Shown here in pieces: positions 23,429 to 49,059 of a stretch of DNA of 64,000 bases. The translations under genes were made by a program, and so were the position numbers. Every line of letters begins with the position of its first letter. The stretch's first letter is position 1. The DNA comes from Coptis chinensis. Taxonomy: Eukaryota; Streptophyta; Magnoliopsida; Ranunculales; Ranunculaceae. The notes beneath the pieces were generated by a model that searched no databases, was not told where the DNA came from, and saw only the letters and a program-made list of their open reading frames with translations. Location: NCBI GenBank assembly GCA_015680905.1, contig CM027382.1, positions 15,163,501-15,227,500 on the forward strand. The letters are read 5' to 3'.

Positions 23429-23433
23429 AGTCT
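23429..23433 (+). repeat. Target-site duplication AGTCT, left copy of the Tat element
   Basis: The five bases directly before the 5' LTR are AGTCT. The partner is AGACT at 41083-41087, which is AGTCT on the minus strand directly after the inverted 3' LTR. The match indicates the two LTRs belong to one insertion event. Confidence 0.8.
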
Positions 23434-23860
23434 TGTAGTAGGCAAATATCGTACTCATAAACATGTTCGTTTTGATTTTTTAAAAACTCGATATATTGGC
23501 ATAAAGGCCAATATCTCGGTAAATTTCGTAGGTGTTCAAATTATGATGCAGGTACAAAGCGGGAAACAAGAAAGAAAGGCAAGTGACACGTGTCAAAGAT
23601 TGATTGGATCCATGCCAAATGAGGCACTATATAAAGACTAGAAGGGCATCAGAAAGGAATGAGTTTTTTCATTCAATCCAAATTCTAAAAAACTGTAAAA
23701 ACAGGAGAGAGAAACATAGAGAAAGAGAGATTGTAAACATTTATTGTTAATCAATAAAACTTTGATTCAATTTCTTCATTCACTCTTCCCATTCATTCTG
23801 ATTCATTAGTAAGGTTGCGTGATCTTAGAATACTTAAGAAAAGTGTTCTTAGACATCACA
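23434..23860 (+). repeat. 5' LTR of the Tat-type Ty3 element
   Basis: A 427-bp LTR from TGTAGTAGG to GACATCACA. A TATA box (TATATAAA) is at 23628-23635 and an AATAAA signal near 23751. By eye it differs from the inverted LTR at 41088-41520 at roughly 15-20 positions plus small indels, so the insertion is not very recent. Confidence 0.9.
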
Positions 23861-23861
23861 T

Positions 23862-23871
23862 TGGCGCCGTC
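23862..23871 (+). promoter_or_regulatory. Primer-binding site of the Tat element
   Basis: TGGCGCCGTC follows the LTR after one base. This fits priming by the 3' end of a tRNA-Asp, as is common in Tat elements. Confidence 0.75.
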
Positions 23872-23985
23872 TATGCATCAAAGACAAGAAGAACTTAGCT
23901 TTTCTTTTTCTTTGATCAAGAATTCGAAGTGTTTCTTTGAATTTGAGTGAAAGAAGTGTGAAAAAGGAGTGAGAAGTGGATTATA

Positions 23986-25851: not shown

Positions 25852-25873
25852 AAGGCAGGGGCCACGAACCATT

Positions 25874-28800: not shown

Positions 28801-29509
28801 TTTGAAAGGGTGATTTGCCGATATGGGTTGCCGCATGCTATTATATCAGATAATGGACCTCAATTCATTGGGGGGAAAGTGAAATATTTTTTGGAATCAT
28901 ATCAGATCAAGCACTTTACATCAGCACCTTATTATGCTCAAGGGAATGGGCAGGCAAAAGCAACGAATAAGACCATTATGGACAACATCAAAAAGAAGCT
29001 GGAAGACAAGAAAAGTTTGTGGGTTGATGAGTTAAATAGTGTGTTGTGGGCATATAGAACAACCCCTAGAGTAGCAACAGGAGAATCACCATTTACGTTA
29101 GCTTATGGGATGGAAGATGTAACTCCAGCCGAAATGGTGGTGTCGACATCAAGGACAATGCTTGTAGTAAAAGGATTGAATGATCAGGGGATGCAGGCAG
29201 AGATCTTAATTAAATTTAGAAGATAGAAGGGAGCAAGAAAAAATGAGGCTTGATTCTTATCATAGGCAACTCAGAAAAGCATTTAATAAGAAAGTAAAAG
29301 AAAGAAGTTTCCAGGAAGGTGACCTAGTGCTGAAAGAGGTTACATAGGCGACAAAAGGAAAAGGAGCTGGGAAGTTTTCGGCGAATTGGGAAGGTCCATA
29401 CATTATCCACAAAGTGGGAGTAAATGGAGCATTCTATCTAAAGAAAGCTGATGGGGAAGTGTTAGCAAAACCTCAGAATGTTAGTAATCTGAAGGTATTC
29501 TATCAATAA
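25874..29509 (+). pseudogene. Tat element pol: protease end, RT, RNase H, second RNase H, integrase (broken)
   Basis: Protease remainder lies at 25874-26086. From 26122 one frame codes for reverse transcriptase (VRICVDFTDVNKQCPKDYYL; catalytic YIDDMV), a connection/RNase H segment and then a second, archaeal-like RNase H (RLFVDGSSGQKGCGIGA, NNEAEYEALI) up to 28206. The dual RNase H marks the Tat lineage (Ogre/Retand relatives). Stops in the same frame follow at 28207, 28429, 28621 and 28636. They interrupt the integrase zinc-binding segment (HERECGNHSAG, CSQCQ) ahead of the integrase core (28666-29226; MDIVGPLIPGRGKR, IISDNGPQF). A frameshift near 29215 separates the integrase C-terminal part, which ends at 29509. 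The polyprotein cannot be made intact. Confidence 0.9.
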
Positions 29510-29600
29510 TGTAAAGGTATTTCTATTAAATTTCATGAGCAATTAAGATGTGTAGCATGAATTTTCAATTCAATATAAAGGGATTCAAGTTTCAAATTTC

Positions 29601-29603
<3 letters not shown>

Positions 29604-29672
<69 letters not shown>
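29604..29672. repeat. (TA)n tract at the left inversion junction
   Basis: An uninterrupted TA dinucleotide run of about 69 bp. To its left is the untranslated tail of the Tat pol region; to its right begins sequence belonging to the nested solo LTR. It therefore sits at or within a few bases of the inferred left inversion breakpoint. Such tracts are perfectly palindromic and can extrude cruciforms. Confidence 0.85.
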
Positions 29673-29675
<3 letters not shown>

Positions 29676-30972
29676 AGCATGTAGTAAAAATCAGGGTATC
29701 GATAGAAACCGCTTGGTTTTAATAAGAATGATTATGAGACATTTATGTATGACACCTGAATAAATTACGTAACGAAAATTCTAGAACCAAACTACCACAA
29801 CTCATGTGATTTGCCCTGTGTGGGCATATGTGATATGATTGGCCCTTGTGTAGGGTGTATATATAAGATGTTGATTGACCCATGTGTTGGGCAATCGCAG
29901 CCGAATGGTGACTTGATTATTCCGTTTGCAAAACTAGAACGAGACGCACGATATTTTATGCAGTATAGTGGCAGTACTTACATAATGGCTTTCGTGTGAG
30001 GGTTACCTGGTGTGCGGCATCCCGCTCAGGGTAGTTACGCACGGAGTGGTTCATTATATAAGGGGAGGCATGTGGATGTACATGTTCGGCGTTGGGAAGT
30101 GATTGTGGTAGGCAGGGAAACTAGGTAAGACATAGATACGACGTGATTTTAGGGACACGCAAAGAAAGCCTTAATTAATATAATTATGGTAATGTGTTGG
30201 TTAATGATGTATCTTTAGATAGATGATTGTATATGGTTTTGCAGAAGTGTGGGTCAAACTAATTACTTGGGCAGAGACGACCCACTCTGTAATTGAGCAT
30301 GAAATGCAGTAAGTATAGAATATGCTTGGCCGGTTATTAGTTTAGTTAGAACATAAGGCTCCTCGTGGAGGAACTAAATGTCTTTTATTATGCGTATGGT
30401 TTGTTGTGTGGTTAGTGGGAAGTTAAGGCGCCTCAGTGGAGGAACTACCTACCTTACTTATTGTAGTTAATAATGTCGTATTAGTTGTTGGGAGTTAAGG
30501 CGCCTCGGTGGAGGAACTAACTGCCTTATGGATTGTGTATGTATATGTATAAATATATGTTGTATTTTAGAGCTACTCACACCAACCCGATTTGCATGTT
30601 TGCTTATCGGGTGTGTTCATTAAATGAACATAGTTGATAAGTCTTGACAGGTTTCATGTTGAAGAAGGTTGGTTGCTGCTTGTGGTTGCATTAGCGTCGC
30701 ATTCAGGATATGTTTTGTTTTCCCTTAAGGTGTAATAGATTTTTAGTTGAGACAAATATTGTTTTATATTTTTAGTTGTATTTAAATAAAGAGTTATTGA
30801 AAAGAGATTTGTAATCTAATATTATCTTAAAATTTTTATTGGTTTTTAATTATCCGCATATTTTAAACTGTTTATGGGTTTTTGGAAGTGGAGAGTGCGT
30901 CACACCTCGAAGATCGAAGAGTCGGGAACTAATATTGTTTTTCCGAATTCTATCGAAATTCGGGGTGTGACA
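29673..30972 (+). mobile_element. 3' part of a solo LTR, first half of a split insertion
   Basis: Non-coding LTR sequence ending TTCGGGGTGTGACA. It holds three degenerate 70-90-bp repeats built around the inverted words CTCC...GGAG in GGCGCCTC(A/G)GTGGAGGAACTA (30357-30520). A related end (TTCGGGCTGTGACA) terminates the solo LTR at 58449. The five bases after it (30973-30977) are ATACT, the partner of the TSD at 47141-47145. The matching 5' part of this LTR lies at 46190-47140 in the opposite orientation. Confidence 0.7.
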
Positions 30973-30977
30973 ATACT
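30973..30977 (+). repeat. Target-site duplication ATACT of the split solo LTR
   Basis: ATACT directly follows the LTR end. The other copy is AGTAT at 47141-47145 (ATACT on the minus strand), directly before the LTR start in its own orientation. Confidence 0.7.
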
Positions 30978-31352
30978 CCTGTAGAGGATATGAAACGTCA
31001 TGCAATTAATAAAAATTCCTGTGAATTGCTGGGGGATGCAGTTCTATTTCAGATTTATAGTAATCCTTGAGAGTTACTGGAGGTCGTCTCTCTCGTTCTG
31101 ATTGTCGAGAAACTGGAGGAGCTGGAGAAGGCGGAGAGCACTAGAAAGCGGCGCCTCTGTTAGCTCGATACGGGAAGCGCCCGTGCCTCGATTCTTCGAA
31201 CGCCATGAGTACTAGAGCGTGCCCGCACCTCTATTGACTCATTCCGCGGGGCGCCAGCGAGATTCTTGAAAGTCATGAGCACTAGAAGCGCCATGCCTTT
31301 TCTTCAATAAAACCCATAACTTCAGTGGGTTCAATAACTTCTGTGGTATAAA

Positions 31353-32382
31353 CTATATCTTCACCAACTGCTGGGAGAGGTGCCAAATCTGCCAAACACT
31401 CCCCCCGGGACCGATTCCTAGGTATAGCTGGATTTTGAAAGAAGGCTTCAGATTCCACAAATCAGACATCACGAGAGATAACCAATTTTCTTGTTGCCGG
31501 ATTGTAACATAGCCCTTATGAGTAGTAAAATAACCAACAAAAACACATCGAGTAGCCCGAGCATCAAATTTATCTCGATGAAGAACTTGTTGATACACAT
31601 AACAAACACACCTAAAAACACGCAGATGAGAGAGATCCAGTGGCCTAGATTTGAGTACTTCCAATGGGGATTTAAAACCAAGAACCCGACTGGAAAGACG
31701 ATTAATCAAATAAGCAACAGTTAAGACGCAATGAGACCAGTATTACTTAGGAACATTCATGCCCAACCTAAGAGCACGAGTGGTCTCCAAAAGGTGTCTG
31801 TTTTTTCTTTTCAGTCACCCCATTCTGCTGAGGTGTGCCAACACAGCTAGTTTGATGAATTATCTCATGGTTACGAAGGTAATCAGGTAACAGACCTTTG
31901 CAAAACTTAGTGTCATTGTCAGATCTAAACGCATTGATTTTTGCACCAAACTGATTAGTAACCATAGTATGAAAATCTTTGAAAACATTCACAACCTCAG
32001 TTTTCGATTTCAACAAATATAACCATATAGCACGAGATTTATCATCAATAAACAACACAAAATACTTATAGCCATCATAAGAATTAACGGGAGCAGGTCC
32101 CCATAAATCAGAGTGGGTTAACTTAAACAAATTATTAGACATAAAATGCGAGATTGGAAAAGAGAAACGGGTTTGTTTAGAAAATTGACAAACATCACAA
32201 ACATCATCAGAGTTTATAGAAACATGCGGAAACAAATTTGACAGGACATGACTAGATGGATGCCCAAGTCTTTTATGCAAAATGCGACTCTCAAGTAACC
32301 CACTAGCTTGACACGCCCTTTTATTCGACTTCAACAAATAAAGCCCATTGGAATAAATTCCTTCACCAATCGTCCTTTTCAA
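31353..32382 (-). pseudogene. Copia GAG-pre-integrase and integrase, frameshifted
   Basis: 31768-32382 carries ILHKRLGHPSSHVLSNLF and then the integrase zinc and core segments (CDVCQFSKQ, FIDDKSRAIWLYLL, FRSDND, PQQNGVTE), so the DDE residues can be seen. A frame change separates the C-terminal integrase part (31353-31709; LKSRPLDLSHLRVFRCVCYV, FVGYFTTHKGY). It is not translatable as one protein. Confidence 0.85.
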
Positions 32383-32466
32383 CTTTCGATCTTGAAAGGC
32401 GACAAAGTTAGGGGAAAAAATGACATTACAATTTAAAGAATTTGTAAGTTTGCCAACAGATAGAAG

Positions 32467-33045
32467 TTAGACAGGGAAAGAATGGACAACTAAAGCATCA
32501 CTCTTGTGACTTTGATTAAAAACATTAACTTGACCATTACCTAGAATGGGAACGGTGGATCCATTAGCTATGGAAATATTATGTTTGTCGATTTTGGACA
32601 CAAAATTATGGACAGAGGCAGGGCAATTAACCATATGATCAGTAGCCTCCGAATCAATTATCCATGAGTTACTATTTTCTGGCATAGTAAAATAGGCATG
32701 TAAATTACTTGGCACATGAGTTGAGACAGACTGACCTTTGCTAGATAGCATGGACTTAGTGAGTTATTAGAAAATTTGACTTAACTGATGACTAATATCT
32801 GAGTTGGACATTGATGTCTTGGCTACTGCTGCATGCTCTTTCTTTGACAGTTCCTTTTCCTTTTTCAGATGCGGATATAACTCCCAACAACGGTCCTTGG
32901 TGTTCCAATTCTTTCCACAATGATCACAGTGAGACGGTTCCCGTTTTCCCTTACCTTTTTCAAATCCTTGTGACTTCTTTCGAAAATCATTTTCTGCAAG
33001 TAATACAGTAGATTCAGAGATTGAGGACTTCACCTCGGAGTTCAT
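32467..33045 (-). pseudogene. Copia zinc knuckle and protease fragments
   Basis: 32767-33045 encodes a knuckle-like CDHCGKNWNTKDRC in which the histidine of CX2CX4HX4C is replaced by Asn. 32467-32751 encodes the protease start WIIDSEATDHM, in which the glycine of the catalytic Asp-Ser-Gly is Glu. Both changes would inactivate the domains. The two pieces are separated by a stop. Confidence 0.75.
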
Positions 33046-33692
33046 GGTTTTCTTCTTTGTTTCATCTTTCTGAATAGTTGCACAAAAGCATCAAGTGTTG
33101 GAAGAGTGTTTTCCATTAGAATATTGTTTTCCATATTCTCATATTCTGGTTTAAGACTACGAAATATGGTGAAGATTTTATCCTCTTCAGTCCATTTCAA
33201 AAGAGTCTTAGCATCTGTGGTGTGTGGACGATATATGTTTAACTCATCCCATAATTTCTTCAAATTCCCAAAGTGTTTTGTAAAAGTCTTCTCACCTTGT
33301 TGCAAAGCATCGATTGCGAGTTAAAGTTAAAAAACACGGGCAGAATTGTTCTGGTTTCCGTATAAATCTTCAATTAAATCCCACATCTTCTTTGCAGAAT
33401 CAGAGAAAGTAAAAATTCCAGCAATAGTTGACTCCATAGAATTGAGTAACCAAGATTGAACAAGCTGATCATTAGAAACCCAATTATCAAATTCGGCATT
33501 ATCAATGGCATGACACACATTTGCACCATTAATGAACCCTAATTTCCTCTTGCCACCCAGAGATAGAGAAACAGTCCTAGACCAAGGTATATAGTTTGTT
33601 CCATTCAAGAGAATTGATGACAGCTTCCAACCAAGATTAGAATCAGTCTCTGTTGTAACAACAGACTTTGGGTTTGGTTTTGGATTTGACAT
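33042..33692 (-). pseudogene. Copia gag, interrupted by in-frame stops
   Basis: ATG at 33692 opens a gag of the RE1-like type, with NYIPWSRTVSLSLGG and WDLIEDLYGN. Two stop codons close together near 33320-33327 interrupt it, after which the same frame continues as LQQGEKTFTKHFGNLKKLWDEL to 33042. At least the first stop looks like a CAA-to-TAA change. The gag protein is therefore truncated. Confidence 0.85.
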
Positions 33693-33753
33693 AGTGTATT
33701 GTGTTTATCTAGATTGATTTAGAGGAGAGATTAAGCGCTCCGCTCTGATACCA

Positions 33754-33884
33754 TGTAGAATTAAACAACCAATTAAAGAGACAAAACACAAGAATTTATA
33801 ATGGTTTGGAGCCAATGCAGCAACCTACGTCCACGGGAGAAGAAATGTTTATTGCTTGATTGATTTCTTAGGGTTCCATTAGAG

Positions 33885-33927
<43 letters not shown>
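33754..33927 (-). repeat. Copia 5' LTR, inner part, with (AT)n
   Basis: Ends TTCTACA next to the primer-binding site and matches the last part of the LTR at 48778-49054 (shared GTCTCTTTAATTGGTTG and AAGAAATCAATCAAGCAATA). The distal edge is an (AT)n run (33887-33927) next to a foldback element. The outer part of the same LTR is at 40257-40337. Confidence 0.85.
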
Positions 33928-33928
<1 letters not shown>

Positions 33929-33970
33929 CCCGGCTCCTAAAAGGACCTTAAATAAGTACCAAATCTAAAA
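33928..33970 (+). repeat. Foldback element copy 1, left fragment cut off by the MULE
   Basis: Starts GCCCGGCTCCTAAAA and is nearly identical to the start of copy 2 at 39940. It ends in AATCTAAAA (33962-33970), the left MULE target duplication. The remainder of copy 1 continues beyond the MULE at 39616. Confidence 0.8.
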
Positions 33971-34634
33971 GGGTCTTTTTGTAGTACGTCACACTATAAT
34001 AGGGCATATTTGAGTTTAGTCACACGAAGTTCAAATATTTGATTTTAGTCACACTCTGTCAACTTTTCTGTCTCAATCTGTTAGTCAACGTATTTGACTA
34101 AGTCAAACCGTACATTGACCGTATATATATACATAACCCCCCCCCCCTTTTTTTTAATACAATCTATCATCACTCACCACTATACTCGAGGACAATTTCA
34201 GTGGTAGAAAACAAATTCTATCAATCTGGTCTAACAACTTGAATCTCGATGAATATCGAAAGTCAATTAAATTAGGGTACTCAACAAACAAAACTAGGGT
34301 TAATGGTTCCCGAAACTAAACAAAACATTCTTCAAAATTACTCACATCCAATTGGGAATTAATGGCATTTGAAAGAAGTTAAGAGGCAGGGACAAAGAGA
34401 GATCGCAATTTGTTAACTTCTCCTCAAAAGGTATGTGCTTATCCTAATTTAACATTGTTACCCTAATTTAACATTGTTACCCTGATTTAACAATGTTTAC
34501 TATAATTTCATCCATTTTTAATGACAAAAATTTGGGGGTTTGTTGTCTAATTAACAAAGGGTACCCTAATTTAGTCAATTGATGTTTATTGCTTACTAAT
34601 TAGCGTGGTGTTCGTGGTTCAATTGCTATGTAGG

Positions 34635-37600
34635 CATAAGTCAGCCTGGTTACAAGGTCATTAGGGCACATTATGGTGGTAAATGGGTTATTAATCGTAT
34701 TAATGGATTAAGATTATTTCACTACGTTGGAGGTAATGTGATTGATTCAAAAAACATTCAGAAAAATTACATGACCAAGGGGAAACTGTTAGGTTGGATG
34801 CATGAGGTTATTCCCTCTCCTCCTAATGAAAAAGTTGTGATTTATTCCTTGGTGAGTGGATCAAAGTTACTCTTAGAGACTGATGCTAGGGTGATGAACT
34901 TTTGGACTAAGTCAAATCCAGACAAAAATGGACATGTGCATATTTATGTGGATTTTCTACAAGACCTCACTGGGGTCATGCCTCCCCCACCTACAACACA
35001 GACCATTAACCCAGTCACACCTTCTCCACCTACAACACAGACCAATAACCTAGTCATACCTTCCCCACCTACAACACTTGCCAATAACCCAATCATACCT
35101 TCCCCACCTACAACACAGACCAATAACCTAGTCCTACCTTCCCCACCTACAACACAAACCAATAAAAAATGCACACAACAATGTAAGGTGAACCCCACTA
35201 ACCCAGCAGTTAAGAGGAAGAATCTACCATTGAAGAGAAACACAGTTGATGAAGAATGTGTTGATATAGAGACTACTGGGACTATTGGGAATGTCAATGA
35301 TCATGAAGCTGTTGAAGGTATGATTGTGTTTATATTTGATTTTGTTATAAATTTATGGATATGTCTGTTTCATTGATATCTATTTCATTGATATCTATTT
35401 CTTATGTATAGATACTGGGGTCAGAGTAGATATTGATCATGTGGAGCCTGAAGAAGGCTATCACAGTAATCTTTCAGATAGTGAATATGATGAGGAAGAG
35501 TTAAATGAAGAACAAGGCATAGAAACTGAAGAAGAGGATGAGGCTGATGTTGAGGTGGAGGATGAGGATGATGTTGAGGTTGAGGGTGAGTTAGAAGATG
35601 CATATGAGGTTGATGAACAAGAGGAAGAGATTCAGAAGTATGGTGTAGGTTCAAATATTGAGGAGTTTGTTAGGAATAATTCTACATGTCATCCAGAAGA
35701 GAGGGTTGAGGAAACTAATGTGGGTAAGGGGTTAAAACTTGTGCTTGGTCAGGAATGGGCTACAAAAGAGGAAGCCAGACAATATATGAGGACTTATGGT
35801 ATTCAAAATAGGTTTGTGATATCATGGGATTACAATGACAATAGGAGGTTGAGATTAACTTGTGACACAGAGCATTCACAAAGCAAGAAAGAGAATAGAG
35901 GGAGGAAAAGGAAAGGGAAGAAACAAGGGCAAAAGAAACAAAAGAAACAAAAGAAAGGGAAGAAAGACAAATCCAAATGCAAATGGTTTTGCAATTTGAC
36001 TAGGTTAAATGATCAGCACACTTTCAAGCTCAAGACTGCAAACTTTGAGCACACCTGCAACCCAGAAAGCAATCATAGAAACCTTATGGCTAATGTTAAT
36101 TGGATTTCTAGCAAGATTGATGAACAAATGAGGTTGCATCACAAGTCATACAGACCTAGAGATATCATTAAGATCATATGGAAGGATTTCACAGTTAAGA
36201 TCAAGTACTGGCAGGCTTGGCATGCCAGAGCTATAACTTTGGATCAGATTCATGGCAATTATGAATACTCTTACAATAGACTACCTGAGATGTGTAAGCA
36301 GTTGCTAATAGCTAACCCTGGTAGTAGTTTCAAGTGTGCAAGGGATGATGCTACAAAGAAGTTCACTGGGTTATGTGTGGCCTTTAAAAGCTAGTTTGAG
36401 AGGGTTTGTAAGAGGTTGTAGGCCCATTATTGGATTGGATGGGTGTTTCTTAAAGGGTAAATATGGTGGGATTTGTTTGTCAATTGTAAGTTTAGATGGT
36501 AATAATGGCATGTTCCCTTTGGCTATCTACATTTGCAAGGTGGAGAACAAGGAGAATTGGACAAATTTCTTGGAGATTATGAAGAATGACCTCGAGGATC
36601 ACTCATTCAATCTAACTATCATGTCTGATAGACAGAAGGATTTGGACATAGCAGTGAGCACTATATTTCCTAGGGCTGATCAGAGGTTCTGCTTTAGACA
36701 TATATTTCAGAACATGCAAAAGTATCACAGAGGGCCTCTGATGGAAAGATTGGCATGGGGAGCATCTAGTGCATACACAGAACATGAGTTCAAGACCTTT
36801 ATGGAAGACCTTGAAACTGCAGCACTGAATGAAGAAATCAGAAAGAAAGGGATACCAAGTAATGGTGAAGATGGCCAGCCAAAGAGACCAAAGGTGAAGA
36901 CAGCCAAGGAGTACCTTATGAAAGAGGAAACTAAATTGTGGGCAAGACATGCTTTTGATATAAGGTCAAAAGTTGAACATGTTACCAATAACTTCTCAGA
37001 GTCATTCAATTCTTGGATTCTAGAAATTAGGGACAAACCAATACACCAGGTGGCTTTGCAATTCACTCTTATGATGATGAGTAGTTTATTGTATCGTAAA
37101 GGGTCCAAGGAGATAGTATGGGTGCAGGACCTTGAACTTGTGCCTAGGGTTAAGGAGATCATTGCAAAGCATTTGGATCTTTGTCGGGGGGATATAATGT
37201 CTCGTGGTCAACTGAGTTTACATTTGTTGTGTCAACTGAAAGTAAATGGTGGAATGTGAACTTAGATGCTCATAGCTGTGATTGCAAGGAGTGGGATCTT
37301 TTACGGGATACCATGTATTCATCTTTGTATGTGCTATATCTCATATGACTATCGCAAGGGCATAAATTGGACTCGATAAAGTATTTTAAGTTTTACTCTC
37401 ATATTTATACCCTTTATTTATTTCATTTTTATAAGATATTTGTCATTTCAAGTCTATTTGTCTATTTGTAGGTATTGCAGCCCTTTTTTAACTGTTAGAA
37501 TGTATAGAAGAACATATGCAGACTACATCTTACCACCACTTCATGAGACTGCATGGGACAAGGTCGAGAGCTGCATTTGTGATTTTTGTTGTGCCTTTTT

Positions 37601-38447
37601 TATACTTACATGGTTTGTGACATTTGTATACTCACATGGTGTGGTGCATGTAGGAACCATCTGATGTGCTACCACCCATGCTTTCAAGGAGACCAGGTAG
37701 GCCTAGGGTAAACAGGAAGAGAGGTGAAGATGAGGGGCCCTCACAGTCCACAAAAAAGCAAAGAAAATGTAGTAAATGTGGGATGATTGGTCATAATAAA
37801 GTCAGTTGTCAAGGGGGGCCAGTTGCACAGAAAGGTGGAGCAAAGAAGAACAAGGGTGGACCGATTCTGAGAGAAAGGTGGAGGATCCAAAGAAAAAGGT
37901 GGGGACAAAGTGGATGCATCTCAAGAGACTTTAACAGTTCCATCTCAAGATACAATGTGTCCAGAGTTGTTTGTCAGACTTCCAAAAGCTCCCTGTAAAA
38001 CACAAAAAAAGAGACAACTTGAAGACCCATCAACACAAGCTTTGCAACAGACAAAAAAGCATAAGAATGGTGTCAGTGCATCTCAGCCACAACAAAGGGT
38101 CCTACTGGTGCAAAGGGTCCTACTGGTGCAAGTTCTTCTCAGCCAACAACAAAGGGTCATGCTACAAGTGCTTCTCAGCCAAAAGCAAAGGGTCCTACTG
38201 GTGCAAGTTCTTCTCAGCCAAAAGCAAAGGGTCCTACTGGTGCAAGTTCTTCTCAGCCAACAGCAAAGGGTCATGCTACAAGTGCTTCTCAGCCAAAAGA
38301 AAAGGGTCCTACTAGTGAAAATTCTTCTCCGATAACAAAGAAAGTGCTCTTTACAAGTGCTCGACCCAACAAACAAAGGGTCCAACAAGAAAGGGTCGTG
38401 CTGCAAGTGCTTCTCAGCCACCAAGTTTAACTTCAGGAACTCAGTGA
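34635..38447 (+). pseudogene. MuDR-type transposase gene of the MULE, frameshifted
   Basis: Domain order: PB1-like N-terminus (from 34635, after an acceptor at 34634; VIRAHYGGKW, LLETDARVMNF), a PPTTQTN repeat segment (34978-35165), an intron ending near 35411, a very acidic region (35441-35640), the MULE N-terminal domain (QEWATKEEARQYMRTYGI), then the DDE transposase (GLDGCFLKGKYGG, MSDRQKDLDIA, RHIFQNMQKYH), a SWIM-type CDCKEW finger near 37280, the RRTYADYILPP block (about 37502) and a zinc knuckle CSKCGMIGHNKVSC near 37770. Breaks: a one-base shift in the AAAA run at 36386-36389 and another near the G run at 37185-37190. The tail holds 13-residue repeats around KGPTGASSSQP. The transposase is inactive as it stands. 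Confidence 0.88.
38100..38310 (+). repeat. Tandem repeats in the transposase tail
   Basis: Roughly 39-bp units built on AAAGGGTCCTACTGGTGCAA alternate with a related unit containing GGGTCATGCTACAAGTGC. In the transposase frame they read KGPTGASSSQP and KGHATSASQP. The repeats are in multiples of three, so they were formed while the tail was translated. Confidence 0.7.
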
Positions 38448-38746
38448 ACTTGTTTTTACTTTTTTTTTTTTTTGGAACAAATGTATGTATGAGTACCCTA
38501 TATGTATTTTGGGTTGTACTGAATGTTTTTGGTGGTTGTTATCAGGTTTTGGAAACATAGATTTGTTATTAGGTTTTGGAAACATAGATTTGTTATTAGG
38601 AACATATGTAATCATGTTGGTTTAAGTCAAATTCAGAAACGTCATTGTGCATTCAGAATTCAAAAGCCATTATGCATTATCAAACTGAAAAACCCAAACC
38701 CAAAATACATTCATTTCATTTCAAATAGCAGTACATCCATTACAAC

Positions 38747-39236
38747 TTAGGGTGCAAACCCTAAAGACTTAACAAGGGCACATACATCTTCCACACTCCC
38801 TTCTACAATCAATTTAGAGGTACCCTCCACTGTTACTTTCACCTTCCCTCCTTCAGTGCCCACCTTGTCACTTTTCACAAGTGTTTCATGCCTTGCTTCA
38901 TTAAGTTCTTCATCTAGGAGATCAATCCATTTGAACGCAATGCATTTAGGCTGACTTTTGCACCTTAGAAACCTTTTACCAGTGTTTTTGCCTTGCTTAC
39001 AAAAAAATAGAGTCATTGTGTTTGATTTGCACAACACACATAAGTAGTTCAACCAACGATAGTCTCTCTTCATGTGGTCTATATCAGCACAAAGAAAGCA
39101 ACCCCCCTGTACCCAAAATGCAAAACAAAAAGGGTAAATATCAATACCTTTATCATTCTTCAAAAAACCCAAATTTCCTTGAGATGGTCAAATTCTTTAC
39201 CTGTTTAGATGATTCGCCTTCTTCCCCTCCTCCCAT
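38747..39236 (-). CDS. GRF-type zinc-finger gene carried by the MULE
   Basis: Exons 39201-39236 and 38747-39106 (minus), spliced at CAG/GTAAAG and GTACAG, give 131 residues from MGGGEEGESSKQ. The centre reads MTLFFCKQGKNTGKRFLRC followed by KCIAFKWID, the shape of the GRF zinc finger (aromatic-Cys...Gly-Arg-Phe-type core, then Cys and a W-x-D end), although the first metal-ligand pair is irregular. The C-terminus is Val/Lys-rich without known domain. It lies convergent to the transposase and ends about 300 bp from its stop; the start is close to the right inverted repeat, which may supply the promoter. Small GRF-finger genes occur with plant MULEs; its role in transposition is unknown. No break is seen. 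Confidence 0.7.
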
Positions 39237-39615
39237 TTCGTCCCGATATTGAGAGAGATTGTTAGATTTTGAGAGAGCTCGATTGTTAGAGAGCCAGAGA
39301 GATCGAGAGATTGTTAGAGTTGATATATTTGGAGGTTGACCCAATGACTTATACTTCTCCCAACAAGTATTTGTTTTCTACCACTGAGATTGTCCTCGAG
39401 TATAGTGGTGAGTGATGATGGATTGTATTAAAAAAAAAGGTTATGTATATATATATATATATATATATCAATGTACGGTTTGACTTAGTCAAATACGTTG
39501 ACTAACAGATTGAGACAGAAAAGTTGACAGAGTGTGACTAAAATCAAATATTTGAACTTCGTGTGACTAAACTCAAATATGCCCTATTATAGTGTGACGT
39601 ACTACAAAAAGACCC

Positions 39616-39939
39616 AATCTAAAATAACCACAACTTTACCTACAAAATGATTTAAAATCTAATCTTTTGTGCATATGATCTACTAACCATAAAGAACATC
39701 TTTACAAAAATTCAACTCATTTGATACCCTCTAACTTAGATAAAAATTAGACCTTTATTTAACGGTCTAGAAATTAGACCCTCTAACATATCTAACGGTC
39801 TAGAAATGTCTATATATTTCTAGACCGTTAGATATTTTTTCAAAAGTGGACAACAATTTTTATCTAAGTTAGAGGATATCAAACGAGTTTAATTTTTGTA
39901 GAGATGTATTTTATGGTTAGTAGATCATATATATATATA
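39616..39939. repeat. Foldback element copy 1, remainder
   Basis: Continues copy 1 after the MULE. It has inverted arms at about 39677-39748 and 39855-39926 (shared GATCTACTAACCATAAA and ACTTAGATAAAAATT) around a loop of about 106 bp. It ends in a TATATATA run before copy 2. The first nine bases are the right MULE target duplication. Confidence 0.8.
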
Positions 39940-40256
39940 GCCCGGCTCCTAAAATGACCTTAAATAAGTACCAAATCTAAAATAACCATAACTTCACCTA
40001 CAAAATGATTTAAAACCTAATCTTTTGTGCATATGATCTACTAACCATAAAAAACATCTCTACAAAAATTTAACTCATTTGATACCCTCTAACTTAGATA
40101 AAAATTGTTGTCCACTTTTGAAAAAATATCTAACGGTCTAGAAATGTCTAGTTTCGTTAGATATGTTAGAGGGTCTAATTTCTAGACCGTTAAATAACGG
40201 TCTAATTTTTATCTAAGTTAGAGGATATCAAACGAGTTGAATTTTTGTAAAGATGT
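39940..40256. repeat. Foldback element copy 2, loop inverted relative to copy 1
   Basis: Starts GCCCGGCTCCTAAAATGACC like copy 1 and has the same arms, but the loop between them is the reverse complement of the copy 1 loop (GTTGTCCACTTTTGAAAAAA comes first here and last, complemented, in copy 1). It borders directly on the outer part of the copia 5' LTR. Confidence 0.8.
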
Positions 40257-40337
40257 TGTCATGAACCGACTTAGTGCGCACGCGCCTTCATCATGTGCAA
40301 CTGAAGCGCACACGCGCGATCTATTTCTTCTCCCACA
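40257..40337 (-). repeat. Copia 5' LTR, outer part
   Basis: On the minus strand it starts TGTGGGAGAAGAAA, as does the 3' LTR at 48778, and keeps the GC-rich CGCGTGTGCGC segment. The five bases outside it, ATTAT at 40338-40342 (ATAAT on the minus strand), match the duplication after the 3' LTR at 49055-49059. Confidence 0.85.
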
Positions 40338-41082
40338 ATTATTTTAAGTGTTCAACTGAGTGCTGCTGCTTTATTAATTAGCACTAGTTGTCTGGACTTC
40401 ATTTCTTGGATGGCCTTGCTTTGAGTTGCAAGAGTAATATGCCCCCAAGAGGTCTTGCTTCGAATGCCTCTGCGCTGTCTGTAGCATTGTAGCAACATAA
40501 CTAAAATATGCACATTAGAACATCATCAACGCATTTCCATTTTTCATTGTGACACCCCAGCAGTTTTTGTACTTCAAAATTTCTAAAACCAAGGAAAGAA
40601 CCAGCGCGTTTTGGGCAAAATTTGGTTTTTAATTTTGGATGGGAATAGTTGTCCCGTCCAACATCTTGGGCCCAAAAAAATATAGCCAGTTTTAATTTGT
40701 TAATTTTAATTTTTTATTAAAAAAAATTGAAAAAGTTATAGATGGCAAAACTTGTCCCGTCCAACATCTTGGGCCCCACATACAAAATCGAGAAGTTTTA
40801 ATTTTTTATTAAAAAAAAAAGGAAAAAATCTTGGACGGGACAACTTGTCCCGTGCGAGTCATTTCTATATTTCTGACGAATTTGGTTTCGGATTTGACAA
40901 TTGTTAAAATAAAAACGATGATTTGGCGGTCGTTGGTGACGAAAATTGCCAAATAAATTGTCAACTGTCACATTGGAAATGGATTATAACAATGCGTTGA
41001 TGATGTTATTAGGGATAAAGGATAGAGTTGAGCCATCACTCTACTTTAGTATTGGGAATTTGCATTCCCTTTTTCATTAGTC
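40338..41082. other. Spacer between the Tat and copia insertions
   Basis: This 745-bp stretch is what lies between the two insertion sites. It contains the MITE-like unit at 40519-41007 and otherwise no recognisable gene. The copia TSD ATTAT occupies 40338-40342. Confidence 0.5.
40519..41007. mobile_element. MITE-like unit of 489 bp
   Basis: Imperfect terminal inverted repeats of about 38-42 bp (AACATCATCAACGCATT at the left; its complement at the right, both leading to a TGTGACA word) enclose AT-rich non-coding DNA. ATTAG flanks both sides (40514-40518, 41008-41012). Inside, the words TTGTCCCGTCCAACATCTTG recur in two copies about 110 bp apart, followed by an inverted third. The superfamily is unclear; a 5-bp duplication is unusual for MITEs. 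Confidence 0.5.
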
Positions 41083-41087
41083 AGACT

Positions 41088-41520
41088 TGTGATGTCTAAG
41101 AACACTTTTCTTAAGTATTCTAAGATCACACAACCTTACTAATGAATCAGAATGAATGGGAAGAGTGAATGAAGAAATTGAATCAAAGTTTTATTGATTG
41201 GCAATAAATGTTTACAATCTCTCTTTCTCTCTGTTTCTCTCTCCTGTTTTTACAATTTTTTAGAATCTGGATTGAATGAAAAAACTCCTTCCTTTCTGAT
41301 GCCCTTCTAGTCTTTATATAGTGTCTCATTTGGCCTGGATCCAATCAATCTTTGACACGTGTCACTTGCCTTTCTTTTTTGTTTCCCGCTTTGTACCTGC
41401 AACATAATTTGAACACCCACGAGATTTACCGAGATATTGGCCTTTTTTTTTATGCCAATATCTCTAGTTTTTAAAAAATCAAAACGAACATGTTTATAAG
41501 TACGATATTTGCCTACTACA
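41088..41520 (-). repeat. 3' LTR of the Tat element, inverted
   Basis: On the minus strand it runs from TGTAGTAGG (41520) to GACATCACA (41088), 433 bp, homologous along its length to 23434-23860. It is the 3' LTR because a polypurine tract adjoins its start (41521-41534) and no primer-binding site follows its end. Directly outside is AGTCT (minus strand, 41087-41083). Confidence 0.9.
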
Positions 41521-41534
41521 TCGCCCCCTCTCGA
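41521..41534 (-). promoter_or_regulatory. Polypurine tract of the Tat element
   Basis: Minus strand TTTCGAGAGGGGGCGA abuts the LTR start. Such a purine run primes plus-strand DNA synthesis and marks this LTR as the 3' one. Confidence 0.75.
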
Positions 41535-42213
41535 AATTTTGAAATTTCCTTTGAAATTTCAACTTTTCGAGAAGAAATTAAACCAAATAACGGATATGAA
41601 AACTATCGGGCCCAAACAAACACCTGATCCAATATTTCAAAATAAATAAATTTAAACATCTTTAGCTTCTTCAGTACACTTCCTAAATACATAATTTCTT
41701 TAGATTCTTCATTACGCCTCCAAATACCTAAAAAAAAACTCAAGTTTTCTTCTTCTTTAACTTCCCAGAACTCATCTCTCTTGCAATCCATAAAGTATGT
41801 TATTTCATCCTGCACTTTATTAATCTTTCTAACACACGCATTGATATACTTGCTATATTTTGTCTTAGTTTTATTTGCTTACATTTGAATCACTTAATTT
41901 TGCATGTCTGCATGTACTAATGCTTATGTAATGGCATATATTACTACCTTGAACTTCCAAATATATAAAAGTTTGAATCTTTTTATTCCTACCTTAGTTT
42001 TTATCTTTTTGTTTGTTCTGGCTTGACTATCGACATGTATCACAATATTCCCTATATCACTTTATTCCGATACAACTATATTCATTTGTATCTCTAATGA
42101 CTTATATCGGCTTTGCCGATACTACAATACTATGCGGCTAATAATATTATAAATATTGAAATACCGATATTAAAAATACCTTTGTCCCTCCTTTTTTGTG
42201 TATAGTCATCTTA

Positions 42214-44639
42214 ATGGCCAGTGAAGATATCATCTCTGATGCTAGTCTCCCTTCTGAGGATACCATATCGGATAGCATTCTTTCTGACGATATTATTTCT
42301 GACGATAGACCTTTTAGTCACAACTTTGCTTCAACTTCAAGCAATAACTCTCGCCCTTTATTACTTGGGACCTATCTTATGTTGTAGAAGGTATTCCATG
42401 CCATCATTTTGCAACCACTGATTTTGAATCTGAACGTGATACCATAGAAGATACCAGCCGATAGAGATCTGGTCTTTGCAATTTCTTTATTAAACGACCC
42501 AATCTATCGTTAGTTCAAACCACCTATCAAATTCCTTCTTCACTTTATCTACAACACTATGATGGTACTCGGGCTTTTACTCAATGCTAGAGCGGTACGA
42601 AGAATGGAATCATTATTACTGTCGGCCAACTCGCTGCTGGTCTGAGATTTCCTCTATCCACCCTTGATCGTGAAGTAATGAACCATTTAAATATTTCTCC
42701 TGGTCAGGGTAGTGGTAATTTCTGGTGGCTGAGGTTTGTATGTAATTATTATAACAGCCACCTTTCTCCCGATAACTATGTTGCTGATTGTATTAGGTTA
42801 TCCGATATTCTTATGCATTATAGATTCTATGAAAAGATTATCGGATACTTTTATCCCAAAAAACATACCCAACGAAACATTAAGGGTATTCTTAGGAAAA
42901 ACCGCAATAGCGACAAACAGTGGACCCAGTATCCTATTGTTGTTTTAGGTAACTGGGAAAGTTCCGATAGACCAGCAAATCCCCCTTTGAAACATCAAGT
43001 CTTCATTCCCACAAGTATGTCCTTCCCTTTCCTTTGTTTTCCTTCTTCAGCCCTCAGAATCCTTTATCTAATTTCCCTCTCATGTGCGTCTTTTCAGTAC
43101 TTCTACCTCATTTTGCCAAAGCTCGTGGCAATTCTGACAGAGTATTGAGGCTTTTAGAATGAACTAAAGCCGATGTTGATATTAAAATGGGTGCCGATAA
43201 AGAAGGGAATCCTAGGGTTACTGTTCATTTGCTCGATATCTCCCACTATCGGGCACCTCTTTATGTTCTCAAACATCGAGCTCTTCAAAAAATGGGTCAG
43301 TTGCCAACTCCCCTCACTCTCCTTTAAACGACTCCTCAGACGATCTACCCTTTATTATATCTTCCTTTACCTTGCACGAATTGCCTCCCACACTTCCCAA
43401 AAGCTTCTATGATTATCTAGATAACACTTGTACCATGACTCCCAATCTTTTCCCTGATATTAAAAAAGAAGTTTCTAATTTTTATGAATATTCGATATTG
43501 GAAAATATATTTAATTAACATCTTTTATTGTACATAGATATGGCTCCTCGAATGCCGATGAATGCCAACGCTGGTCGTTATTTATCTGAGAAAGGGAAAA
43601 AGAAAACACCAAATCTCTCCTCTAAAACCCCTGCTGCTGATAAACAACTTGCTCCCCCTTCCATCCCTACTAATCCTCCTACTACTCCTAAAAATCATCC
43701 TCCCTCTGCATCCCAACCCAATACCTCCAATCCCCCTCCAACTACTAATGCCTCTTCTAAAAAAAGAAAAACTCCCTCATGGGGTGAAAGTAGTCTTCCG
43801 ATGGTCAACACCTTCACTCCTTTTCATCCGCCGATACTCATGAAATCTTTAAACTTGAATTTTACCTTGCTGATAGCAGCCCTATCCCTTTAACTGCCTC
43901 TCTTTTCGAAGATACTCATAAGACTGAACTAGGTGTTGCTTTAGCCAGCAGCTTTATTCTTCCGAAAGACAAAATTGCTGCTCTCAACATTGACTCCTCC
44001 GAACGGCTTATCGAGTATTTCGACCATATAGAGAAGGTACTTATATCTTGTCTTCTTTTATTTCATACCAATTTTGTCTTTTTACTTTGTACTTATCTAT
44101 TTTGGATATTCTTATAGGCGAAAGCACTTGCCATGGCATAATTTGATCTACTTCATAAGCAAGAATGCGAAATCGGGCGCATTAGAAAAACCCTGACTAC
44201 CCAGCGATTAGAATTCGACCGATTATCCCAAGAAATCACTAGGTTTCGAAAGGAAATTAGTCAACTAACGGTTGCTATGAAACAACAATCTGAGAAAACC
44301 GAAAAACGTTATCGATAAAGAAGTTGATCATGCCGAACTTCGAAGAAAATGATTGATGATTTTGCTGCCGAAAAGATAGAGAAGTGTGGAGGCCTCTCAA
44401 GGCTGCGATCTTTGAATTCAATAATGTCATGACAACTATTAATTCCCTTGGTGATAAGTTTGGATATCTGCAAGCCTTTTGTTCCCTGTAACATCCTTAG
44501 GGAAAACAATATGCTTTCGGATGATGAAGATGAAGATGCAAATCGTGGGTGATACCACCCCGAGCTTCCACCTGATGCTACTCCAACTACTGAGGCCACC
44601 TTATCTGATGTTGATGCACTTCTGAACAATCCTCTTTAA
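42214..44639 (+). pseudogene. Antisense gene of the Tat element (unknown product), decayed
   Basis: Lies opposite to the element's own sense direction, between pol and 3' LTR, where several Tat-lineage elements are known to carry an antisense frame. Visible pieces: an acidic, Ser/Asp-rich start (42214-42387), a globular segment with FWWLRFVCNYYNSHLSPDNY (42678-43015), a segment with IKMGADKEGNPRVTVHLLDI (about 43170-43300), a Pro/Ser/Thr-rich segment (43540-43830) and a helical, coiled-coil-like end (ECEIGRIRKTLTTQRLEFD, 44165-44318) continuing in another frame to 44639. Likely intron borders (TATAG at 42201-42205, GTAC near 44036, ATAG near 44118) suggest it was spliced. Several stops and frame changes make it a pseudogene. 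I do not know its function. Confidence 0.6.
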
Positions 44640-44771
44640 ACTATCCTCCTTTTGCTTCAAAACCATAATTTGCTAACACTATATATTTCTGGACTGTTCT
44701 AAATTCTTAGTTCCATTGATCTTTTGTTTTTGATACTTCACCATTATTTGTAATTTTCCCATATTTGCATT

Positions 44772-45412
44772 ATATCGGCAATACTTAGAATTAAACCAAA
44801 AGAAAATGCAATTTTCGATATCCTCAACTAAAATAATAGTATCGACGACCCTTAGAATTAAACCAGAAAGTCAATACCATTTTCGATATCCTCAACTAAC
44901 ATAATAATATCGGCGATACTTAGAATTAAATCAGAAAGAAAATACAATTTTCAATATCCTCAATTAAAATAATAGTATCGGCGATACTTAGAATTAAACT
45001 AGAAAGAAAATACCATTTTTGATATCCTCAAATAACATAATAGTATCGGCGATACTTAGAATTAAATCAGAAAGAAAATACAATTTTCGATATCCTCAAC
45101 TAACATAATAGTATCGGCGATACTTAGAATTAAACCAGAAAGAAAATACCATTTTTGATATCCTCAATTAAAATAATAGTATCGGCGATACTTAGAATTA
45201 AACCAGAAAGAAAATACCATTTCGATATTCTCAACTAAAATAATAGTATCGGCGACACTTAGAATTAAACCAGAAAGAAAATACCATTTTCGATATCCTC
45301 AATTAAAATAATAGTATCGGCGATACTTAGAATTAAACCAGAAAGAAAATACCATTTTCGATATCCTCAACTAAAATAATAGTATCGGTGATACTTAGAA
45401 TCAAATCAGTCT
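44772..45412. repeat. Tandem array A in the Tat element, about 10 units of 67-69 bp
   Basis: Units contain TATCGGCGATACTTAGAATT, a middle AAACCAGAAAGAAAATACCA and TTCGATATCCTCAACTAAAA. About ten copies stand head to tail with few differences. The array is non-coding and lies between the antisense gene and array B. Confidence 0.9.
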
Positions 45413-45519
45413 GCCAATTTATTTTTATCAAAGCACTACCACATACCTTTATTATCAAATGATCTTCCATGATTCCTTCTCTACGAATATCTTGCTCGAT
45501 AGCTATGATCTTTTTACGC

Positions 45520-46180
45520 CTGATATCTGCATTTGTTTTTGATATCAGGATTTCTTGACAATACGCCTGAAATCAACATTTCTGCCAATCCCAGGACTTT
45601 CTTATGCCTGATATCTGCCACTGTTTTTTATATCAGGTCTTTTTGACAATATTCCCGATGTCAACACGTCTACCGATACTAGGACTTCTTATGCCTAATA
45701 TCAACATTTCTGTCAATATTAGAACTTTTGACAATATGCCTGATATCAACACGTTTGTTGATATCAGGACTTCTTACGCCTAATGTCAACATTTCTATCG
45801 ACATCAGGACTTCTTATGCCTGATATCTGCCTCTGTTTCTGACATCAGGACTTTTTGACAATATGCCTGATATCAATATTGCTACCAATATCAAGACTTT
45901 TTATGCCTGATATCTGCCTCTATTTCTGATATCAGGACTTTTTGACAATATGTCTTATATCAATATTGCTACCAATATCAGGACTTTTTATGCCTGATAT
46001 CTGCCTCTGTTTATGATATCAGGACTTTTTGACAATATGCCTGATATCAATATTGCTACCAATATCAGGACTTTTTATGCCTGATATCTGCATCTGTTTA
46101 TGATATCAGGACTTTTTGACAATATGCCTGATATTAATATTGTTACCAATATCAGGACTTTTTAACAATATGCATGATAT
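45520..46180. repeat. Tandem array B in the Tat element, GATATC-rich and palindromic
   Basis: About seven higher-order units of roughly 87 bp, each made of two halves: CCTGATATCTGC...GATATCAGGACTTTTTGAC and CCTGATATCAATATTG...AATATCAGGACTTTTTAT. Each half is itself an inverted repeat of the CCTGATATC type, so the array can form a row of hairpins. It ends within about 10 bp of the right inversion junction. Confidence 0.85.
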
Positions 46181-46189
46181 CGCCTTATT

Positions 46190-47140
46190 TTAATGGTTCC
46201 TCAAGCTTTAACAGCTGCCCCCTCACTCTACTACACTCCCCCACTTCAACCAATCCTCAATTCACCACATAAACAACCGAAAAACAGTTCAACACCTTTT
46301 ACTGGAGAGTTTGGGCGAGCCGCCATTAACAACATCCAAGGTTCAGCAACCCCCATCCTTCAGTACACGACCCAATCATAGTTAAATCAACACACTTCAC
46401 CCATCCCCACGGTTTCACCATCGATTTCAATCTCGACAGTTTAACCATCGACCGCTCACCCTCCACCAAATCGCGAAGATGCCATTGATGAACCGTGCAA
46501 GCTTCACAGCCACCCCCAAGTTTCAATCCCGACAACACCCCATCCAAGCTCAACAACCAACTTCAAATACTACACCCCCGACATCAATCAACAAATTCCA
46601 AGCCACAGTAAAGAAAAAGAGTGCAAACAGAGAAACAGAGAAACATGACGATTTCTATAGGTTGGGCTTTAACTGCCCTTAACGGGCCATAAAGCTTCGA
46701 CAGCCAATTCCGAGTTTTGGAGGTAACGATTTATCAATACAACAAGAGGAAAAATTATTGACAGAAAGCGTACATAAAAAAAATACGTTTAATGGAAGCA
46801 AAACTCGACAAAGAAAGAAAGCTTAGATCATTCCGTGCTTTGGTGAAATAGGTAAAAAGTAGTTACTCACCTTAATAAAAATCTCCATGAATCCTTTTCG
46901 TCTGATTCGTTGCGCTCCCCACACTCGAGCAAACAAGCCGCCTCCATTTTTATTATTTTATTCTCTAAAAACCCTATTCTCTATAACAATGTGATTATAT
47001 ACTTGGGTTTGAAACCCAAGCCCAACACAAACTCGGGCCCAGAAACCAAGCCCACATATCCCAAATCCAATCCAATCAAATATTAAATAAATAATTAAAT
47101 TAATTAATAAATAAATACGTATTTTAAATACGGGCGTACA
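46190..47140 (-). mobile_element. 5' part of the split solo LTR, second half
   Basis: Read on the minus strand it starts TGTACGCCCGTATTT at 47140 and continues through an AT-rich start, a transcript-leader-like part (GGGCTTGGGTTTCAAACCC) and ends near 46190 against the Tat element. Its partner is 29673-30972. The flank AGTAT (47141-47145) equals ATACT on the minus strand, matching 30973-30977. Total reassembled size would be about 2.2 kb. The start and end words resemble those of the solo LTR at 54754-58449. Confidence 0.65.
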
Positions 47141-48777
47141 AGTATATAACGTATGTCAATATCACTTCATCTCATCATGCTTTCTTGAGTACTTTCGATG
47201 ATGTGCAATAACCTAAGAACTTTAGAGAAGTTAACTCTCATTCGGTATAGAGAAATGCGATGCAAGAAAAACTTCGTGCTCTAGACGAGAATAAAACTTG
47301 GGAGATTGTTATGTTGCCTTACGGAAATAAAACCGTTGATTGTCGTTGGGTGTTCAGAAACAAGTTCAACAGTGATGGTTCCGTAGAGAGGTCTAAAGCA
47401 CGACTCGTTACAAGGGGATTCACCCAAACATATGGTCAGGACTACAAGGAGACTTTTGCACCAGTTGCAAAGATGAACACGTTTAGAGTTCTTGTATCTC
47501 TAGCTATAAATCAAGACTAAAAATTGTTTCAGATGGATGTTAAAAATGCATTCTTACACAACGATCTTAAAGAATAAGTATATATAAGCATTCCACCTGG
47601 ACATCCAAAGGAGACTAAGGTTGGATTAGTATACAAGTTAAAAAATGCTATATATGGACTTAAATAATCTCCACGAGCGTGGTATGCCAAGCTCAGTTCT
47701 GTTCTAGCTATGATCGGTCTTAAGCGGAGTGATGTTGATCCTTTCTTATTTGTTGAGTCTAGCATGTCAGGCTTGGTGGCTGTTCTTATCACAGGTAATG
47801 ACCATATTGAAATCTCTAAGCTCAAGGAGTTACTGCACAAGAAATTTGCCATTAAAGATCTGGGTATTATGAAGTACTTTATTGGGATCAAAATTGCTTA
47901 TTCAAAAAGAGGTATATTTCTAAATCAAAGAAAGTATGTGTTAGATCTTTTGAGTGAAGAAGAAAAGCTGGGGGTAAAACCATCTGATTCTCTAACTGAC
48001 AGTGGAGCCAAGTTGGACAACACCGGTGATCTTCTTACTGACATTGGTCAGTATCAGCGATTAGTTGGTAAACTAATATATTTAACTATTACCCGACCAT
48101 ATATTTCTTATAAAGTAAGTTTGGTTAGTCGTTTTATGCATGCTCCAAGGACTCCACATACGAATACAGTTTCCAGAATACTGTAGCATGCTCCAAGGAC
48201 TCCACATACGAATCAGTTTCCAGAATACTGCAGTATCTGAAAGGGTCGCCATGCAGAGGTATTTGGATGCGGAAAAATGAGCATACATCTATTACTGCTT
48301 ATATAGATGCTGATTGGGCAGGATGTCCAGTTGATCGGCAGTCTACTTCTAGTTATTGTACCTTTGTGGGAGTTAATTTGGTCACTTGGAAGAGCAAGAA
48401 ATAGAATATAGTGGCTCGTTCTAGTGCTGAAGCTGAGTACAGGGCTATAGCTTCCACCACCAGTGAAATCATAATGCTTCGCGCTCTTATGAAGGATTTA
48501 TGTTTTGGTTTGCATTTGTCAACTATACTTTATTGTGATAATCAAGTTGCTATGCATATTGTTGTAAATTCGGTGTTTCATGAGAGAACTAAGCATATTG
48601 AAGTTGACTGTCATTTTGTGCGTGAAAAAGTGTAATCTAACATTGTCACTACCTCCTTTGTTCGAAGTGACCAACAGCTTGCAGACATTTTTACCAAGGG
48701 ACTTCCAACTTTCAAGTTCCATGATATACTTTCCAAGTTGGGTTCGCTGGATATTTTCGCACCAACTTGAGGGGGAG
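47141..48777 (+). pseudogene. Copia reverse transcriptase and RNase H (3' half), broken
   Basis: Begins inside the linker before reverse transcriptase and continues through RT (WRWVFRNK-type CRWVFRNKFNSDG, TRGFTQTYGQDYKETFAPV, the FLH/VYIS region, SPRAWY) to RNase H ([33 protein letters not shown]). The YVDDM-type catalytic motif is replaced by a decayed stretch around 47770-47800. Stops in the coding frame occur at 47518, 47575, 47664 and later; at least one looks like CAA to TAA. A 48-bp tandem duplication at 48138-48231 breaks the frame. A polypurine tract GAGGGGGAG (48769-48777) precedes the LTR. It is inactive. Confidence 0.88.
48138..48231 (+). repeat. 48-bp tandem duplication inside copia RT
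   Basis: GCATGCTCCAAGGACTCCAC and what follows it occurs twice with a 48-bp period (48138 and 48186); the second copy lacks a base. Intact copia elements have only one copy of this motif. Confidence 0.85.
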
Positions 48778-49054
48778 TGTGGGAGAAGAAAGAGACAGCG
48801 CGTGCGCGCTCAGTCAATTCATGACAAGTTCGACCGATATTGGTGTTTCTATAAAAGGGAAGACTCCATTATTAGAATATACACGATTTTGTGCACTTGT
48901 GTTGTGCCTATATATATATATCTATGGAATTGAACCATAAGAAATCAATCAAGCAATAAACATTTATTCTCCCATGGATGTAGGTTGCCACATTGGTTCC
49001 GAACCAATATAAATTTTTGTGTTTTGTCTCTTTAATTGGTTGTTTAATTCTACC
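48778..49054 (+). repeat. 3' LTR of the copia element
   Basis: A 277-bp LTR from TGTGGGAG to TTCTACC (the usual final CA is CC), next to a polypurine tract. It holds TATA-like CTATAAAAGGG near 48850 and AATAAA near 48955. It matches 40257-40337 and 33754-33900 read on the minus strand. Confidence 0.9.
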
Positions 49055-49059
49055 ATAAT
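49055..49059 (+). repeat. Target-site duplication ATAAT of the copia element
   Basis: ATAAT directly follows the 3' LTR. ATTAT at 40338-40342 (ATAAT on the minus strand) is outside the 5' LTR. Confidence 0.75.

Follow-up and report, generated by a model that had tools for sequence, protein, structure and literature searches.

Evidence for a 16.5-kb inversion inside nested retrotransposon remnants of Coptis chinensis

The stretch of Coptis chinensis DNA analysed here (assembly GCA_015680905.1, contig CM027382.1, positions 15,163,501 to 15,227,500; G000:C6:15163501-15227500), called the window below, is 64,000 nucleotides long, contains no N and holds three transposable elements that are each present as two halves in opposite orientation: a Tat element of the Ty3/gypsy group, a copia element and a solo long terminal repeat (LTR) (Table 1). 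A first-pass annotation had proposed that one inversion lies behind all three. Based on copies of the same families elsewhere in the genome, the proposal is supported, and we put at about 0.95 the probability that a 16.5-kb piece of the chromosome was flipped inside these nested dead retrotransposons.

It is noted that the two LTRs of the Tat element, which are opposite in orientation, both start with TGTAGTAGGCAAATA and end with CTTAGACATCACA, and that their flanks are AGTCT and its reverse complement AGACT. When the segment is reversed, the 5' LTR is followed by a primer-site-like stretch and the 3' LTR is preceded by a purine tract. In the copia element, the integrase is on the minus strand at 31771-32466 (PF13976, PF00665) and the reverse transcriptase is on the plus strand at 47668-48183 (PF07727). 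The copia 3' LTR matches 33755-33899 in reverse complement (129/145) and also, reversed, the bases that run up to 40337; its final base is C, against A in the 5' LTR, and after reversal ATAAT stands on both sides of the element. The two parts of the solo LTR map to one LTR of about 3.5 kb with no internal region, they are flanked by target-site copies, and the corresponding empty site is found in other copia copies, as described below.

To see how each element continues in its relatives, three stretches beside the predicted joins were used as queries against the window's own assembly (936 Mb in 116 contigs). In each search 40 candidates were scored, fewer of them with loci, and the counts given here are of loci examined and not totals for the families. 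The Tat search gave 39 non-self matches and 19 loci were examined, among which 18 continue into the tandem arrays that are held reversed at 44.3-46.2 kb of the window, while the nineteenth, L041, carries a deletion and joins window position 42689 downward, likewise on the reversed arm, which is also consistent with the inversion. The exact break is read through in 17/19 copies, with the type GTATCGATAGAAATAT(C/T)GATATC; the exceptions are L041 (G000:C2:89109982 region) and L045 (G000:C8:7528935 region), where bases just past the TA run seem to be lacking. In the window, GTATCGATAGAAA ends at 29708 and CGATATC (reverse) runs from 46182, so that about three bases are missing relative to the other copies. 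The perfect (TA)34 repeat was considered as the breakpoint and rejected, because a TA run belongs to Tat in the other copies, where it precedes the break point in all 19, with a varied and mostly short length (in L036 it is about as long as here).

For copia, 39 non-self matches were found and 24 loci examined. When each of the two pieces of the window was compared separately with these loci, the halves, which are 16 kb apart and opposite in the window, abut at one target site in 23 of them, the left piece ending at or next to window position 30973 and the right piece starting at or next to 47141. A single AGTAT is common to both pieces in 20/24, the target site is changed in L058, L060 and L066, and in the remaining copy, L059, 14 bp lie unaligned between the pieces. 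The abutting pieces therefore show the empty site of the solo LTR. A protein-side test of the same empty site is weak and is superseded by these nucleotide copies: 53/120 relatives start matching at 47143, inside the target-site copy; P stands at the predicted place in 41 of the 58 relatives with usable upstream sequence (62/120 being unusable); and in a residue-profile scan (56 rows, 52 distinct) the predicted site ranks only 20th of 4053 windows.

For the solo LTR, the search with the right half gave 19 non-self loci (L010-L028), seven of which (L010, L011, L012, L014, L015, L026, L027) also hold the left half, and in all seven the halves have the predicted order and orientation within a 1.5-kb flank. 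When four of the seven were taken at length (L029-L032), both halves were found within one LTR of about 3.5 kb in every case, with a gap of 1.15 to 1.32 kb between them; judged by these copies, the window LTR lacks 1.15-1.3 kb of its centre. As controls, Tat array sequence adjoins the LTR in 0/25 LTR loci, and of 42 further matches to 29604-29803 none spans junction A (the best 40 of 595 candidates being scored). As to a loss of the LTR centre in other copies, among those same 40 scored candidates the further LTR matches all stop at or above 29721.

Alignment with the other Tat and LTR copies thus gives the order before the flip, the bases missing and extra, and the positions of the breaks, which lie between 29708 and 29709 and between 46182 and 46183. 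Reversing the segment turns both junctions into normal family sequence, bar the bases missing at the breaks. The claims that reversal puts copia integrase beside copia reverse transcriptase, puts Tat pol before the Tat 3' LTR and joins the solo-LTR parts in one direction are borne out by copies that continue across the predicted joins, for the solo LTR in the seven loci that hold both halves. The start given earlier, 29604, lies 105 bp too far left.

Table 1. Coordinates of the features in and around the inverted segment (window positions)
Feature	Position	Strand	Basis
Inverted segment, 16,474 bp	29709..46182	.	breaks read from other Tat and LTR copies
Junction A: Tat end ...GGTATCGATAGAAA (29708), 12 nt, LTR from about 29721	29695..29726	.	
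Junction B: Tat array side ends ...GATATCG (46182), CCTTATT, LTR from 46190	46170..46196	.	
Tat target-site copy AGTCT	23429..23433	+	sequence
Tat 5' LTR	23434..23860	+	LTR comparison
Tat left arm: primer site, gag, RT-RNaseH, integrase, (TA)34	23861..29708	+	Pfam PF03732, PF00078, PF17919, PF00665; copies L034-L052
Perfect (TA)34 repeat of Tat	29604-29672		TA runs of varied length in other Tat copies
Second Tat target-site copy AGACT (reverse complement AGTCT)	41083..41087	-	sequence
Tat 3' LTR, reversed here	41088..41520	-	411/433 identical to 5' LTR, gaps counted
Tat right arm, pol to 3' LTR, reversed here	41521..46182	-	tandem arrays, antisense open reading frame, other copies
Open reading frame, 185 residues	42591-43148	antisense to Tat	
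Tandem arrays in Tat right arm	44773-45409 and 45497-46181		
Solo-LTR left part, 5' end TGTCACACCCC (reverse complement, 30972), reversed here	29721..30972	-	other LTR copies
Solo-LTR target-site copy ATACT (reverse complement AGTAT)	30973..30977	-	sequence; copia copies
Solo-LTR right part, 3' end GGGCGTACA (47140)	46190..47140	+	other LTR copies
Second solo-LTR target-site copy AGTAT	47141..47145	+	sequence; copia copies
Copia left arm: primer site TGGTATCAGAGC, pre-integrase, integrase core, SH3-like domain	30978..33753	-	
Copia 5' LTR, reversed, split by later insertions	33754..40337	-	LTR comparison
Copia target-site copy ATTAT (reverse complement ATAAT)	40338..40342	-	sequence
Copia right arm: reverse transcriptase/RNase H	47146..48777	+	PF07727
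Copia 3' LTR	48778..49054	+	LTR comparison
Second copia target-site copy ATAAT	49055..49059	+	sequence
Mutator-like element in copia 5' LTR	33971..39615	+	PF10551, 250-bp terminal inverted repeats, 9-bp duplication
Catalase gene	1430-2290		Pfam
Ubiquilin-like gene	19621-20547		Pfam
U-box/ARM (PUB) protein gene	49938-54180		Pfam

At junction A, the Tat end is followed by CCGCTTGGTTTT before LTR homology begins again, and 10 of these 12 nt (CCGCTTGGTT) correspond to a stretch of the LTR centre that is lost here; in three of the four long LTR copies this stretch lies 114-115 bp ahead of the right-half start, and in the remaining one it carries a single change. At junction B the extra bases are the 7 nt at 46183-46189. 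By eye, other LTR copies have AAAA before CCGCTTGG (reverse), and therefore AAA may be common to the LTR and to the GAAA of Tat at junction A. The breaks thus have no long shared sequence, small losses and extra bases, which is, as a pattern only, that of end-joining scars; the marks fit end joining with loss and filler.

The first-pass annotation had cited, besides the structural fit, three flank pairs, AGTCT with AGACT, ATACT with AGTAT and ATTAT with ATAAT. All six 5-bp flanks are present at the coordinates given for them; for random 5-mers of the window, agreement with a reverse-complemented 5-mer occurs at 0.0015 per pair. Since the ends of Tat and copia are fixed by LTR homology, those two flank matches count. 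The ends of the solo LTR, however, were chosen freely, and between its halves 65 TG..CA pairs with equal 5-bp flanks are observed versus about 80 expected (for the stricter TGT..ACA pairs, 3 versus 7). The description of three independent pairs therefore overstates the statistics, and the solo-LTR duplication, being within chance, was rejected as stand-alone proof of the inversion. The proof is carried instead by the same-genome copies of Tat, copia and the LTR.

Several points weigh against the inversion as reconstructed here. Twelve of the 19 right-half LTR loci are without the left half within the 1.5-kb flank, also at a loose threshold, and do not settle the join; likewise, all six non-self loci of the left half (L002-L004, L006-L008) are without the start of the right half within 1.5 kb, at the loose threshold too, L006 and L008 holding only right-half bits of 39 and 79 bp. 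The three shared bases AAA are weak evidence of microhomology, and the centre of the LTR may have been lost before the inversion. Moreover, the support comes from the window's own assembly. With a tandem array ending at junction B and (TA)34 lying 36 bp from junction A, a contig piece flipped at repeats during assembly has to be weighed. Such an error is unlikely. Junction A lies beyond the TA repeat, at a distance that disfavours the palindromic repeat as a site of misassembly or recombination; the TA runs of the 19 other Tat copies are, as noted above, mostly short; a flip alone would not remove 3 bp of Tat and the LTR centre, nor add 7 nt; and the assembly has 116 contigs for 936 Mb, with the window free of N.

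Recombination within a pair of inverted repeats, one at each break, is another conceivable route to a real inversion. In general, TA repeats and LTRs often serve as substrates for recombination. In rice, inverted repeats were present at single breakpoints of 30 of the 100 inversions checked (PMC10030860). We nevertheless regard this route as very improbable, because the breaks lie in two unrelated families and because a self-comparison over stretches of at least 60 bp (E up to 1e-5) reveals no inverted repeat that links them. That there was no inversion, and that separate truncated insertions have matching flanks by chance, would agree with the solo-LTR duplication being within chance by itself; it is contradicted by the pieces joined in other copies of copia (23/24), Tat (18/19) and the LTR (seven loci, four at length).

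For the inversion itself, the following order of events can be proposed. The copia element would have inserted first; an LTR element of the family with LTRs of about 3.5 kb would then have landed in copia pol, where it is now a solo LTR, and Tat would have inserted 740 bp from copia. Later the chromosome would have broken at two points, one in Tat immediately past pol and the other within the solo LTR, and the 16.5-kb piece would have been rejoined backwards by end joining needing no long homology, which would have cost Tat about 3 bp and the LTR a part of its length and left short scars. Two double-strand breaks with end joining are the presumed route, and the LTR loss presumably belongs to the same event. 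Since Tat and the solo LTR are both cut by it, the inversion postdates the two elements. The Tat LTRs differ at 16/427 aligned sites (Kimura two-parameter distance 0.0385), which at a substitution rate of 1.3e-8 would correspond to about 1.5 million years, and since the copia LTRs, where they can be compared, differ at 12/143 sites gapped or 16/145 ungapped, copia looks older than Tat.

We also consider, as a rather unlikely reading, that one multi-break repair flipped the segment, removed the LTR centre and left the 10-nt LTR fragment at junction A, and that the stretch just past the TA run after Tat pol is a recurrent break site. This is proposed because two of the 19 other Tat copies (L041 and L045) also lack DNA there; if it is true, Tat elements would mark fragile spots across the genome.

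The copia 5' LTR is long because a Mutator-like element and a foldback sit inside it. The Mutator-like element has a transposase of its class, long terminal inverted repeats that are identical at 233/250 positions with no difference in the first 120 bases, and an exact 9-bp duplication, AATCTAAAA, at 33962-33970 and 39616-39624; because of this exact duplication and the identical first 120 bases the element is probably young. It lies wholly inside the flipped piece and therefore gives no order relative to the inversion. The foldback-like inverted repeat (218/236) is at 39695-40257. Note also a 48-bp tandem duplication at 48138-48230 within the copia right arm and, by eye, a short element at 40519-41007, which lies in the spacer separating Tat from copia and has AACATCATCAACGCATT as its inverted ends.

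By eye, the open reading frame antisense to Tat may resemble a TRP28-type motif. A Pfam search up to E 10 gives no match for 42591-43145, TRP28 (PF04195) included, the other short frames of the same Tat region likewise lack a TRP28 match, and 0 relatives were found among 32 database candidates. In viral contigs, three stretches matched Tat pol, none a relative, and the LTR motif had 0 matches. Elements of the Retand lineage of Ty3/gypsy have a pol-to-3' LTR region of 2,933-6,566 bp, LTRs of 315-1,194 bp and an internal region averaging 10,364 bp, with a TRP28 domain in all but two of 63 clusters (PMC11963269). The reversed Tat element, with about 4.9 kb from pol to the 3' LTR, about 10.5 kb internally (from coordinates, the end of pol being placed by eye) and an LTR of 427 bp, resembles that description in its long pol-to-3' LTR region, tandem arrays and frame antisense to pol, and differs from it in that TRP28 is not detected in that frame.

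A Pfam scan of the open reading frames of at least 150 residues in the reversed segment matched only transposon families, so that no effect on a host gene is known; Rfam and transfer RNA scans gave no matches. The inversion is a clear but ordinary case. In the rice pan-genome inversion index, 888 of 1769 inversions have transposon sequence within at most 100 bp at both breakpoints, as at the present locus, with an enrichment of Ty3-gypsy, copia and Mutator-like elements and an estimated rate of about 700 inversions per million years (PMC10030860); those inversions were found by comparing genomes, whereas the present one is read from a single genome via split elements. At maize centromere 10, partial and chimeric retrotransposons, mismatched target-site copies and inversions are attributed to break repair of the microhomology type (PMC4806543). 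The likeness to the present locus lies in the broken elements, the mismatched copies and the inversions; the maize case, by contrast, is centromeric and was traced by sorghum synteny, while the Coptis chinensis locus lies between ordinary genes.

Finally, we make no claim of newness for the approach via split elements and target-site copies. With split transposons, their target-site copies and their family members, a single genome can support a past inversion with both breaks placed to the base, and genome-wide use could yield a catalogue of old inversions, their timing relative to insertions and a collection of repair scars.

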